Assembly: GCA_003023725.1 (NCBI GenBank)
Contig: PXYT01000002.1
Span: forward strand, 1 to 64,000
DNA: 64,000 nt
From: Sulfobacillus benefaciens
GTDB lineage: Bacteria; Bacillota; Sulfobacillia; Sulfobacillales; Sulfobacillaceae
Reading direction: 5' to 3'
Shown: in pieces, positions 46,657 to 54,276 of the stretch
How the letters are laid out: the number at the start of each line of letters is the position of its first letter
Numbering within the stretch: the stretch's first letter is position 1
Notes under the pieces: model-generated
What the model saw: only the letters and a program-made list of their open reading frames with translations
What the model was told of the DNA's origin: nothing
The model's database searches: none
Made by a program: the position numbers and the translations under genes

Positions 46657-47439
46657 CTATGCATTAAGGGTCAGCATGTAAATACCCACGATAATGACCA
46701 CTCCCGAAAACACAAAATTCAAGGTCCGCTTATGCTTGCTCAACTGATTGGCCAACCGGGTTCCCAGAATTCCTCCGGCGGCACCTCCGATCACATACTC
46801 CAACACCACCAACCACAGAACCAGGCCCGACACAGCATAGTTAATGGCTGTCGTTAACCCAAATGTTCCCACGGAAAACAATGAACTGCCGATCGCGTAT
46901 ATCATGGGCATCCCGGTGGACATGACCAATCCAGGCACAATTAAGAAGCCGCCTCCAATCCCAAAAAATCCGGACACCGCGCCCACCAGGAACCCGGCAG
47001 GAATTACGCGCCAAAACATCTTGCGATTCCAGTGAAACTGCGTGCCATCTCCGGATTTTTTCGGTCTCAGCATCAGGATCGCAATGACTATCATAAGAAT
47101 GGCAAAGAGAAACAACAGATCTTTTCCGTTGACCGCTTTACCTATGGAAGACCCGACGAAAGCCCCGATGGCACCGGGGATCGCAAAGGCAATGGCTGCC
47201 ACCCACCGAACGTTACCGCTTCGCCAATGAGGAAGTAAATTAAAATACGCATTAACCCCCACGGCTAGCGCGGTGGAGCCGATCACGAGATGCGGATCGT
47301 GGATACCAACGAAATAGAGTAAGAGCGGCACTGCCAGAATAGATCCGCCACCCCCGATTAGCCCCAGACTAAACCCTACTATCAGGCCCGAAATAACGGC
47401 CAATACTTGTTGTACGGCCGTGACATGTATCATATGCAA
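46657..47439 (-). CDS. TauE/SafE-family anion exporter
   Basis: A 260-residue membrane protein of about eight helices with two copies of the family motif: GFSLGLIGGGGSILAVPLLL near the N-terminus and GAVSGFFGIGGGFLIVPGLV in the middle. TauE/SafE proteins export sulfite, sulfoacetate or related organic anions. In a sulfur-oxidising organism sulfite export is an obvious possibility, but the substrate is inferred. It stands alone, with a strong hairpin (47584-47619) upstream that insulates it. Confidence 0.93.
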   Translation of the reverse strand: MHMIHVTAVQQVLAVISGLIVGFSLGLIGGGGSILAVPLLLYFVGIHDPHLVIGSTALAVGVNAYFNLLPHWRSGNVRWVAAIAFAIPGAIGAFVGSSIGKAVNGKDLLFLFAILMIVIAILMLRPKKSGDGTQFHWNRKMFWRVIPAGFLVGAVSGFFGIGGGFLIVPGLVMSTGMPMIYAIGSSLFSVGTFGLTTAINYAVSGLVLWLVVLEYVIGGAAGGILGTRLANQLSKHKRTLNFVFSGVVIIVGIYMLTLNA

Positions 47440-47676: not shown

Positions 47677-48320
47677 CCACCCGTTCAACGGGTGGCTTGA
47701 ATTTAGCCCTATAAGGGCATGGTGCTTGCTGCGCCTAAAGGCGCGATTTCGCCAGTCTCTTTCCCTGACTACCCCTCAAGGGCTTTATTGACTGGCCTTG
47801 TCGTCAATAATATCCGCTTCTTCGTGTTCCTCAATGTACTTTTTGATGACATCCTTATTGACGCCTACCGTACTCACGTAATATCCCGACGCCCACAAGT
47901 GCCTCCTTCGCCCCGGCTTCATTTGCGGAAACCGATCCAAGATCATCAGGGCACTTTTCCATTTGAGGTCACCCATAAACTCGGATACACTCAACTTCGG
48001 CGGGATTTTCACGTAGATCTGTACGTGATCCACACGGATACTGCCTTTCACCAATTCCACACTCTTGTACTCACAGAGCCTCCTCAATATTTCCCCTATT
48101 TCCTTGCGAATCCCTGTGAAGAAAGCCTTGCGGCGATATTTCGGGATAAATATGACAGGATAGCTGCAATCCCAACGGGTGTGGGACAGACTAACCCACG
48201 GGCATCGTGCTCCCTTGCTTGAGAATGGGCTCGCGAAACCATTTCTCCGTATAGCAAGGGAGGACTGTTACATCACGCCCGACGGCTTCTCCTGTTCAGT
48301 TCTCCCACGCATAGCGTGGG
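47677..48320 (-). mobile_element. IS200/IS605-type element, decayed
   Basis: The tnpA pseudogene lies between subterminal hairpins as expected for IS200-like elements: CCACCCGTTCAACGGGTGG (47677-47695) on one side and CCCACGCATAGCGTGGG (48304-48320) on the other. Two further small hairpins lie just after tnpA (AGCCCTATAAGGGC near 47706 and GCGCCTAAAGGCGC at 47731-47744). Exact ends cannot be set because this family makes no target duplication. Confidence 0.6.
47785..48189 (-). pseudogene. tnpA: IS200-type transposase TnpA without HUH motif or clear start
   Basis: The frame reads SHTRWDCSYPVIFIPKYRRK, then GEILRRLCEYKSVELVKG, DHVQIYVKIPPKLSVSEFMG and HLWASGYYVSTVG. This is a nearly full-length (about 134 residues) Y1 transposase with the catalytic tyrosine in GYYVSTVG. 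The HUH metal motif that should read HxH is HVQ, which would abolish metal binding, and there is no ATG, GTG or TTG at the expected start (only CTG at 48189). It is therefore probably inactive, although it might still act as a target for related transposases in trans. Confidence 0.8.
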
Positions 48321-48791: not shown

Positions 48792-49397
48792 CTACACAAG
48801 TTCCGTACCATCGCTTACGCCGTATCGCCTAATTACTTGGGCTAATATCCATTCATTTGCGGTCAGAGTCAGTATGTCATCGTTCAAGGCAAAAGACGGA
48901 ACACTTCGTATCGACAACAGCTCCAGCAGCTCTGTGACTTGGTTCAAATCAATGACATAAAGTGAAACAAGTGGATTGCAAAGACTCATTGCGCCGATCA
49001 GGCGAACTGCCTGCGCACACTTGGGTCAGCTAGGAGTCGTAAACACCGCCACGTTAACCGGCTTAACGATTTCTGCAGCCATTTGTTCAGCGACCGGCGT
49101 CAGGAGTTTTTTCCCCCGTCCCACGGCCAGCATTAAATCGCGCCAGCTGGCCTCTTCCTGGCCTACAGGTTGGCCAGCGAACCAGATATGAACCTTTTCG
49201 CCTGGTCTCCCGATTCCGTAAATGGAAATATTTTGGGGAAACCATGGCCACGGCTTGTCGCGTCGCTCACAGCCTTTCTTCCAAACAATTAACCTGTGAT
49301 CTTGAAACACTTCCGTAAATGCCGAGTTTTCCGGACCATCAGTTACAATCACTACAGGCTGAACCAAGTCTTCCAGCCAATCCCAAGCCGACATCAT
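48792..49397 (-). CDS. Thioredoxin-fold oxidoreductase with in-frame TGA at active site: candidate selenoprotein
   Basis: Two frames, 49026-49397 and 48792-48989, are in the same phase and are interrupted only by the TGA at 49028-49026. Read through, they give 201 residues: an N-terminal thioredoxin-like half without CxxC (VQPVVIVTDGPENSAFTEVF) and a C-terminal half with VNVAVFTTPS-TGA-PKCAQAVRLIG, then SIRSVPSFALNDD with the cis-proline Val-Pro. The layout is that of protein disulfide oxidoreductases (PDO, AhpF N-terminal domain), where this site is CPxC. TGA replaces exactly the nucleophilic cysteine (residue 124; resolving Cys127). The ATG follows GGGAGG, two bases after the stop of the upstream gene. 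The alternative is a nonsense mutation. Confidence 0.6.
48990..49028 (-). promoter_or_regulatory. SECIS-like hairpin after the in-frame TGA
   Basis: Starting right after the TGA, CAGGC (49013-49009) pairs with GCCTG (49003-48999) around the loop AGTTC, and TGCG (49017-49014) pairs with CGCA (48993-48990) below a 3' bulge. The loop begins 17 bases after the TGA and has G as its second base, both inside the limits published for bacterial SECIS elements. Small hairpins are common, so this is support, not proof. Confidence 0.4.
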
Positions 49398-49399
49398 GT

Positions 49400-50308
49400 C
49401 TAATCCTCCCGCATCGGACTAATCTGTACTGTCTTTCCACTAACTTCCTCAACAACACGCCGCCATACACGGGACACCGACTGTTTTTCGTGTGATTCAG
49501 CAAATTCAAGCCCACGACGAATGAGAATCTCACGGAACCGGGTGTTGAGGATGGCCTCTTGAATAGCTTCCCCCCATGCTCCGCCGTCGTCCCCTTCCAC
49601 GAGCAAAGTGGGATACCCCCATATGTTCCTGGCATCGGGGGTATCGCGCAATAAGACTGGAAGGCCATGGGCAAACACGTCTAACAACTGATAACAAAGA
49701 TCCGTGTCCCGTTCGGGGTATACCAGAAGATCGGCCGAGCGATACAATCCGGAAAGTTGATTTTGGGATAGAGAAGGGGCAAATACGATCTTTTGCGCTA
49801 GGCCCAAATTTGCCACCACTGGTGCCAGCCGATCGCGATGTTCAAGCCCTCCTAACAAGATTCCTTCTCCCTGGTCCGACAAGACACGTTTCAGTGCCGA
49901 AAAAAATATCGATACACCGGAACCATCCCGGTACGCTCCCAAATACAAGACACGCGGTCTCTCGGATAGGCGCAAGTCCTGAGTAACAGTAAACACATTG
50001 CCATCGAGCCCTCCCCCTGTAGGGCCGTTAGCCGGAATACGCAACAAACCATCACCATCTGGAACAATGCCCCAACCCAGGCCTACGGGACCGGGCCACT
50101 TGGCCCAGGGATCACCCAAGGGGTGGATCAAGAGATCTGAACTTCGCACGCGTTCGCCGATCCCTATCGTGAACGGGCGAGGAGACAACCACGAGCGTTT
50201 TGGTTCGGTTAAACGCCACTTTGCCATTAAGGAACCCAGTCTCTGCGCCACGGCTTTATCCAGTTCTGTCGCGTGTGATCCGGTCGAGATGCGGATTAAC
50301 CGAACCAT
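49400..50308 (-). CDS. Glycosyltransferase-like protein (GT4 C-terminal domain)
   Basis: A 302-residue protein. RPRVLYLGAYRDGSGVSIFF opens a GT-B donor domain and LSGLYRSADLLVYPERDTDLCY with LLDVFAHGLPVLLRD matches the donor-binding end of GT4 enzymes; the usual ExxxxxxxE region is replaced by PERDTDLCYQLLDVFAHG. The N-terminal half is short for a full acceptor domain. Its stop lies two bases before the ATG of the thioredoxin-fold gene, so the two are co-transcribed, which is an odd pairing. Substrates unknown. Confidence 0.7.
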   Translation of the reverse strand: MVRLIRISTGSHATELDKAVAQRLGSLMAKWRLTEPKRSWLSPRPFTIGIGERVRSSDLLIHPLGDPWAKWPGPVGLGWGIVPDGDGLLRIPANGPTGGGLDGNVFTVTQDLRLSERPRVLYLGAYRDGSGVSIFFSALKRVLSDQGEGILLGGLEHRDRLAPVVANLGLAQKIVFAPSLSQNQLSGLYRSADLLVYPERDTDLCYQLLDVFAHGLPVLLRDTPDARNIWGYPTLLVEGDDGGAWGEAIQEAILNTRFREILIRRGLEFAESHEKQSVSRVWRRVVEEVSGKTVQISPMRED

Positions 50309-52875: not shown

Positions 52876-54276
52876 ATGCCACACATTTATGCGGTGACAA
52901 ACGTTCCACCGGAAATTCTTGCCTATGGTATGGCCAAATACTCGCGTTCCAATCGATCATTGGAAGACAACCTCCGCGAACTGTCCGACGATCAAGCGGC
53001 AAAATTTCTCCAGACTTTTTATTTCGATTATGGCCATGCCTCCATTGCCGACCTGGCTCATGTCGCGGTTGCCATAGAAGACATTTCGATTTTGGCAGCC
53101 ATGGACATCGTCGACGAACCCCTGTGGGATGGACAGGAACGATCGACACGCTATCAAAATTTTGATGGCTCAGCATATTACCGTCCCGAGGATGTTCCGG
53201 CGGATTATGACCTTGCCACCCATGAACTATTTGACTTGTATCGCCGCGTTCAAGAACAAAGCCTGGCCATTCTCACTGACGAGTACCCCAAACCCCCCGC
53301 CATGCTCGAAAAGACCTATAGACGGACAATACGGGCACGAGCCTTTGATATTGCCCGTTATTGTCTGCCGCTCAACACCTTGACGAGCCTTGGGCAAATC
53401 ACTAGCGCGCGTGTTCTGGAACAGCAAATCCGGCGGCTCATGGCATCTCCTTTACCAGAGATCCGAGAGATTGCTCAGCAGCTAAAAGACGGTATTACTG
53501 AGCGTCCTGCGGTGGATATATCGGCGCCAGACCAAAGCCATCCAGTATTGCCGACACTGGTTAAGCATAGTGAAGCCGATTCCTATCGTGTAAGCTTGCG
53601 CAACATTTTTGAGCCGTTGGCCAAAAAAGTGCCCTCGCTGCCATCCACAAATGTGGAACTGACAATTGATGCTCCCATCACGGAATCCCAAATAGCCCAG
53701 TTACTCTATGCTCACGGCCAAGCCTCGTACCACTCTTGTCTAGTTTATGCCCAAGATATGTCAAATGCGGAAAAGGACGAGCTTCTTTCAGTGGCTCTCG
53801 CAGAGCGGGGAAAACATGACGCTTGGCCCCGCTACCTGCGCCAAGCGCCGCTACAGTTCGATTTAGTTGTGGATGTCGGAGCCTTCCGAGACTTCAACCG
53901 TCATCGCCGGGTCCAGAAAATTGCTCAACACCTCAATCCGGAAATGCTATTTGCCGTTCCAGAACCATTGATTCGGTCCCGATCCGAGGACGAGTATAAA
54001 GCAATCTTGACTCAGCATTATCGCTGCTTATCGGCCTTGCCTGACCCTCAATTGGCGTCTTATGTTCTGCCGTTGGCCCATCGCCGGCGCTTTCTTATGA
54101 GCATGGACCTGCCTGAAGCGGCCTACATCATCGAACTGCGCAGCCGCTCACAAGGTCATTTCAGCTACCGCCACATTGTTTGGAAGATGTATGAGGCAAT
54201 ACAGTCACGCTTGCCTGAATTCGCCCGTCACATTCGGGTAACTCCTCCCGAGGATTTTAATCCCTTTCAGCGGTGA
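52876..54276 (+). CDS. Double-domain ThyX-like flavin-dependent thymidylate synthase
   Basis: A 466-residue protein made of two ThyX-like halves; ordinary ThyX has about 220-250 residues and acts as a tetramer. First half: HASIADLAHVAVAIEDISIL, GQERSTRYQNF and RTIRARAFDIARYCLPLNTL correspond to the substrate-binding part. Second half: FRDFNRHRRVQKIAQHLNP carries RHR as in the ThyX signature RHRxxSxNxxSxR, and RSRSQGHFSYRHIVWKM the rear part. The signature is split between halves: the first has the ERSTRY piece but not RHR. It would make dTMP from dUMP using FAD and methylene-tetrahydrofolate, if active. Overlaps the convergent glgB by 20 bases. Confidence 0.8.
   Translation: MPHIYAVTNVPPEILAYGMAKYSRSNRSLEDNLRELSDDQAAKFLQTFYFDYGHASIADLAHVAVAIEDISILAAMDIVDEPLWDGQERSTRYQNFDGSAYYRPEDVPADYDLATHELFDLYRRVQEQSLAILTDEYPKPPAMLEKTYRRTIRARAFDIARYCLPLNTLTSLGQITSARVLEQQIRRLMASPLPEIREIAQQLKDGITERPAVDISAPDQSHPVLPTLVKHSEADSYRVSLRNIFEPLAKKVPSLPSTNVELTIDAPITESQIAQLLYAHGQASYHSCLVYAQDMSNAEKDELLSVALAERGKHDAWPRYLRQAPLQFDLVVDVGAFRDFNRHRRVQKIAQHLNPEMLFAVPEPLIRSRSEDEYKAILTQHYRCLSALPDPQLASYVLPLAHRRRFLMSMDLPEAAYIIELRSRSQGHFSYRHIVWKMYEAIQSRLPEFARHIRVTPPEDFNPFQR

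Follow-up and report, generated by a model that had tools for sequence, protein, structure and literature searches.

The question raised by this locus is whether a TGA that separates two open reading frames (ORFs) of the same phase is a stop codon, or the selenocysteine (Sec) codon of a single gene for a thioredoxin-fold protein. The locus lies in a stretch of 64,000 nucleotides of Sulfobacillus benefaciens (contig PXYT01000002.1), referred to here as the window.

The original prediction, made from the sequence of the window, placed the split gene correctly; its strand, which had been left unstated, is minus. The frame from 49397 to 48792 contains a single internal TGA (49028..49026), and reading through it gives 201 residues, MMSAWDWLEDL...VAVFTTPS-U124-PKCAQAVRL...IRSVPSF...ANEWILAQ..., so that the two ORFs, the TPS-TGA-PKC motif and the downstream SVPSF are all present as described. 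The N-terminal half was also rightly said to lack CxxC; none occurs in residues 1–110. A good ribosome-binding site precedes the start codon (GGGAGGATTAGAC-ATG), which lies 2 nt past the stop codon of the preceding gene, a group-1 glycosyltransferase.

Table 1. Features of the locus, in window coordinates
Feature	Position	Strand	Basis
Selenoprotein gene, 201 aa plus stop, AhpF-NTD/PDO-like double thioredoxin fold	48792..49397	−	ORF reading, homologues, AlphaFold2 fold
In-frame TGA, read as Sec-124 of the TPS-U-PKC active site (UxxC)	49026..49028	−	TGA or Cys in 30/30 distinct homologous loci
Resolving Cys-127 (TGT) of UxxC	49017..49019	−	Invariant in 22-sequence alignment
Part before the UGA (product if UGA terminates): N-terminal thioredoxin-like fold without CxxC, W50xW52 and GQE81 motifs	49029..49397	−	Sequence, alignment, profile, fold model
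Part after Sec: resolving Cys, cis-Pro motif SVP167SF, EW182-183 motif; purifying selection	48795..49025	−	dN/dS, alignment
bSECIS upper stem-loop CAGGC-AGUUC-GCCUG, apical loop from 17 nt after UGA	48999..49013	−	Comparative RNA analysis
Group-1 glycosyltransferase, upstream	49400..50308	−	Adjacent in 7/7 congeners examined
TauE/SafE sulfite-exporter family gene, next conserved gene downstream	46657..47439	−	7/7 congeners

Conservation of the TGA and the means to decode it

A random stop at precisely this codon had been considered unlikely. That argument is weak by itself, because the pattern is not rare: in-phase ORFs of at least 100 and at least 70 codons with one stop between them occur 15 times among the 4532 stop intervals of the window. 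Homology was therefore needed to decide on the TGA, and it was conservation across homologous loci that settled the matter against chance.

Sampling of 61 genomes and three named loci gave 30 distinct homologous loci. The two outcomes that the prediction had named as informative, Cys in some homologues and a conserved TGA in others, were both found: the aligned codon is TGA at 25 loci, TGC or TGT at five, and nothing else at any. The in-frame UGA thus aligns with the catalytic Cys of homologues, and the same UGA recurs in independent relatives, two of the marks by which bacterial selenoproteins are recognised. Among the five Sec-bearing congeners, dN/dS after the TGA is about 0.1–0.2 where dS could be estimated; judged from these ratios, strong purifying selection acts on the part that follows the TGA.

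A pseudogene, in which the TGA would be a nonsense mutation or a sequencing error, fits the frequency of single-stop patterns in the window. It is opposed by the same TGA in 25 distinct homologues of several genera, by the low dN/dS past the TGA, by Cys as the sole alternative codon and by the covarying hairpin described below, and we give this reading practically no credence. A sequencing error in particular is not credible, since the TGA is shared by independently assembled species of several genera.

Sec decoding requires its own machinery, and the prediction had been made to depend on finding it. All four components are present in the genome: SelA (482 bits), SelB (358 bits, over cut-off), SelD (358 bits, over cut-off) and a tRNA-Sec (68.9 bits, anticodon tca), a full set being a third mark of a bacterial selenoprotein. 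The selD gene itself has one internal TGA. The genome also carries two TGA-containing formate dehydrogenase genes; Sec formate dehydrogenases have been reported for all Sulfobacillus genomes (PMC4378227).

Genes of the window type (at least 200 bits) were found in 23 genomes, and all 18 with TGA have SelA, although under the stricter filter one of these (G006) yielded no match for tRNA-Sec. Both sampled members of one genus (g4; G010 and G019, 96–97% complete) have neither SelA nor tRNA-Sec, and both have Cys at the site, an apparent loss of Sec decoding. Nearly all other members of the family have SelA. Two more distant TGA carriers gave no SelA hit; one is a 400-contig assembly that does have a tRNA-Sec (G023), and the other is 71% complete (G028).

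Exchange between Sec and Cys also occurs within the genus. Of the seven Sulfobacillus congeners, which share a common gene neighbourhood here, five have TGA and two have Cys. The Cys codon is TGT in S. thermotolerans, the nearest named relative that bears the gene, and TGC in the second species, and both Cys congeners have kept the Sec machinery. Overall, the tree of homologues requires at least four Sec/Cys changes.

Could suppression or local reassignment instead put Trp or Cys at the UGA, or could the UGA serve as a regulated terminator with the 123-aa N-terminal part as main product? Dual products of termination and readthrough are common at bacterial Sec-UGA codons. Reassignment of UGA throughout the genome was rejected, because the neighbouring LysR, ThyX-like and NAGidase genes end at ordinary TGA stops. 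Among the homologues, Cys is the only replacement for the TGA, and it is Cys that stands there in the genus devoid of SelA and tRNA-Sec. A product of 123 aa would lack the whole redox centre. Insertion of another residue, or termination as the main outcome, is therefore very improbable, and comparison of sequences gives good support to codon 124 as selenocysteine. None of the checks made on the refuting conditions of the original prediction went against it.

A hairpin downstream of the UGA

Bacterial SECIS elements (bSECIS) are described as having a stem of 4–16 bp and a loop of 3–9 nt, with G in one of the first two loop positions and the loop 16–37 nt after the UGA (PMC13188914). The window hairpin falls within all of these limits, with a 5-bp stem and a 5-nt loop, AGUUC, of the form NGUNC at 17 nt. 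The stem was recovered unprompted by RNAalifold. Across the 25 TGA genes, the cells of the stem pairs were paired in 95.2% of cases versus 79.5% after shuffling, covariation was 0.443 versus 0.169, and stem registers slid along the alignment were at most 44% paired.

Since the stem sits inside a conserved protein motif, a control was needed in which the protein is held fixed and its codons are redrawn. Against this synonymous-codon null, the TGA genes formed 119 of 125 pairs (86.8 expected, sd 4.0) and 20 complete stems (2.9 expected), figures that come from codon usage pooled across species and count related sequences as independent, so that little weight belongs on the exact p-value. The Cys genes showed no enrichment, with 18 of 25 pairs against 16.4 expected. 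The 5-bp stem is imperfect in five of the 25 TGA genes. The hairpin is seen only comparatively: folding the 59 nt after the UGA as a single sequence gave a different, unremarkable minimum-energy structure (z −0.86). An Rfam search of the window gave no match. Both formate dehydrogenase genes of the genome also have a hairpin about as far from the UGA, with GGUCU as its loop.

Fold, family and paralogues

The protein had been assigned to the AhpF N-terminal domain/PDO type, and this assignment holds. The nearest NCBIfam model is TIGR02187 (PDO_seleno_TRX), which the window protein matches at 66.7 bits, well below the equivalog cut-off of 185; the model is matched by 22 of 22 subfamily members, the best E-value among them being only 1.5e-22. 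Profile comparison (hhalign) gave 99.6% over 178 columns with a canonical PDO of the same genome and 96.2% over 161 columns with the E. coli AhpF N-terminal domain. An AlphaFold2 model, built from only four sequences, reached pLDDT 87 and pTM 0.86. Its best Foldseek match in the PDB is the AhpF N-terminal domain 1zyn (TM 0.72–0.74 over the whole chain), with PDOs next; whole-chain TM values of about 0.72–0.77 and two consecutive thioredoxin folds place it in the double-fold superfamily. The model thus describes two fused thioredoxin-like folds, with the redox pair Sec124–Cys127 in the second fold only.

The protein differs from each of the known systems that it resembles. With the TIGR02187 selenoproteins, or 'homolog of AhpF N-terminal domain', of Carboxydothermus and Symbiobacterium (PMC1794560, PMC13188914), it shares the double thioredoxin fold, UxxC in the second fold with Sec at the same catalytic position, and a bSECIS directly downstream; unlike them, it scores below the cut-off, forms its own group in the tree, has a shorter N-terminal fold and carries the W50xW52, GQE and EW motifs, and its gene shares a genome with two over-cut-off members. 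With the AhpF N-terminal domain of E. coli and Salmonella (PDB 1zyn, 1hyu, 4o5q), it shares a first fold without CxxC and the GxPxGxE motif, whose E81 is nearly invariant and aligns with AhpF Glu86, a residue for which an acid–base role has been proposed in AhpF. However, it ends at 201 aa as a stand-alone protein, with no fused flavoprotein (the FAD/NADH thioredoxin-reductase-like domain at the C-terminus of AhpF), and has Sec-Pro-Lys-Cys where E. coli has Cys-His-Asn-Cys. The archaeal and Aquifex PDOs (PDB 1a8l, 1j08, 2ayt, 2hls) share the CPxC region of the second fold and the overall architecture, but a canonical PDO such as that of P. furiosus has CxxC in each fold, and the window protein has none in the N-terminal one. 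Finally, Sec thioredoxins, glutaredoxins and UXX-star proteins have the same UxxC nucleophile in a thioredoxin fold but are single-fold proteins of other families.

Window-type proteins form a separate group in the tree, have their own conserved residues (W50xW52 and EW182-183), and were seen only in this family and order. They also stand apart in score, at 200 bits or more versus about 145 or less, a gap that is partly built in because the profile was made from the same group. A plasmid search (PLSDB) returned distant AhpF-like matches only.

The genome contains four PDO-like TGA genes, namely two over the TIGR02187 cut-off (contigs C90 and C1), one below it (C65) and the window gene. The C65 gene (L073; G000:C65:21251-21664, minus) is divergent, with SPT-U-TRC at the active site and a hairpin, CCAUGU-CGUGA-ACAUGG, 11 nt after the UGA. 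Beside the canonical PDO gene on C90, near position 1214 on the minus strand (L071), lies a further TGA readthrough ORF, VLVYTTPT-U-PHC..., of the YruB/UXX-star glutaredoxin type (68.4 bits to NF041212, cut-off 66); from its sequence it is likely to be another selenoprotein, and a simple scan found no SECIS-like GU-loop hairpin in it. In two other genomes (G003 and G004), a PDO paralogue is of the Cys type (L080 and L081), with CRWC versus UPYC in close relatives.

Function, gene neighbourhood and significance

Taken together, the gene probably encodes a cytosolic selenoprotein thiol:disulfide oxidoreductase. Most likely it would act as a selenothiol:disulfide reductase, taking electrons from thioredoxin reductase and handing them on to peroxiredoxins or other disulfides. 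SelB and Sec-tRNA-Sec would decode the UGA as Sec, assisted by the hairpin. The Sec124 selenolate would then attack substrate disulfides or peroxiredoxin intermediates, and Cys127 would resolve the mixed selenosulfide. Re-reduction would fall to a thioredoxin reductase-type flavoprotein, because no flavoprotein of AhpF size was found in the genome, the full-length matches lying in ORFs of 322–346 aa, which are too short; a full-length thioredoxin reductase is encoded on contig C108. The PDO of S. solfataricus provides a precedent, receiving its reductant from an NADPH-dependent thioredoxin reductase and reactivating Prx (PMC7278568). The Sec peroxiredoxin PrxU of S. thermotolerans is induced under ore stress (PMC7409299), which makes a Sec–Sec relay conceivable. 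For an acidophile of the iron- and sulfur-oxidising type, a habitat deduced from relatives, the benefit of Sec is plausibly a nucleophile that stays reactive and resists over-oxidation.

A dedicated role tied to the operon, in surface polysaccharide synthesis or in the handling of sulfite or sulfur compounds, would replace general peroxiredoxin and disulfide reduction. The upstream glycosyltransferase is a probable operon partner, and together with the TauE/SafE gene it accompanies the selenoprotein gene in all seven congeners; the residues peculiar to the subfamily and the presence of canonical PDO selenoproteins in the same genome also favour such a role. However, the order glycosyltransferase–selenoprotein–TauE is kept in the seven Sulfobacillus species and not in other genera that have the gene, and for this reason the operon, probably incidental to the biochemistry, was given little weight for function. 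As a point against general reduction, the conserved neighbours suggest no redox partner. On balance we regard a dedicated role as unlikely and retain general selenothiol:disulfide reduction as the preferred reading.

Two other genes of the region were noted. Between the selenoprotein and TauE genes lies an IS200/IS605-type transposase gene (Y1_Tnp; 47785-48087, minus), apparently incomplete at its N-terminal end. On the plus strand, 52876-54276 encodes a ThyX-like protein of 466 aa, about twice the standard ThyX length (the model has 211 positions); it falls below the thyX cut-off, matches Pfam Thy1 on two stretches and is present in 7/7 congeners.

The original prediction had suggested that the selenoprotein might be new to such an organism. 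The kind is not, as lists of selenoprotein families from 2006 (PMC1794560) and 2026 (PMC13188914) both include a UxxC-bearing 'homolog of AhpF N-terminal domain'. New here are a divergent subfamily too distant for the existing model to recognise, its repeated occurrence in one genome and the clear Sec/Cys exchanges. No earlier description of the subfamily was found in the searchable literature text. Two reviews of prokaryotic selenoproteins do not mention Sulfobacillus, AhpF and Sulfobacillus are both absent from the text of the deep-Sep paper, and the Sulfobacillus literature found covers only the formate dehydrogenases and PrxU cited above. It is conceivable, though rather unlikely, that the proteins constitute a selenoprotein subfamily, so far without a model and belonging to Sulfobacillus and its order, whose dedicated function and partners are distinct from general reduction of the PDO/AhpF type, and in which Sec and Cys changed places several times, once inside the genus, where the operon is syntenic, and once where the whole Sec machinery is absent.

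Where UGA is taken for a stop, automatic gene calling would truncate this gene or break it in two, and the subfamily is at present covered by no NCBIfam model. The selenoproteome of Sulfobacillus, bacteria of bioleaching and acid drainage, is for these reasons probably under-counted. The same operon carries Sec in five members of one genus and Cys in two others, both with Sec machinery retained, and a Cys-bearing sister genus has neither SelA nor tRNA-Sec; the locus thus offers a natural experiment on what Sec contributes in an acidophile.
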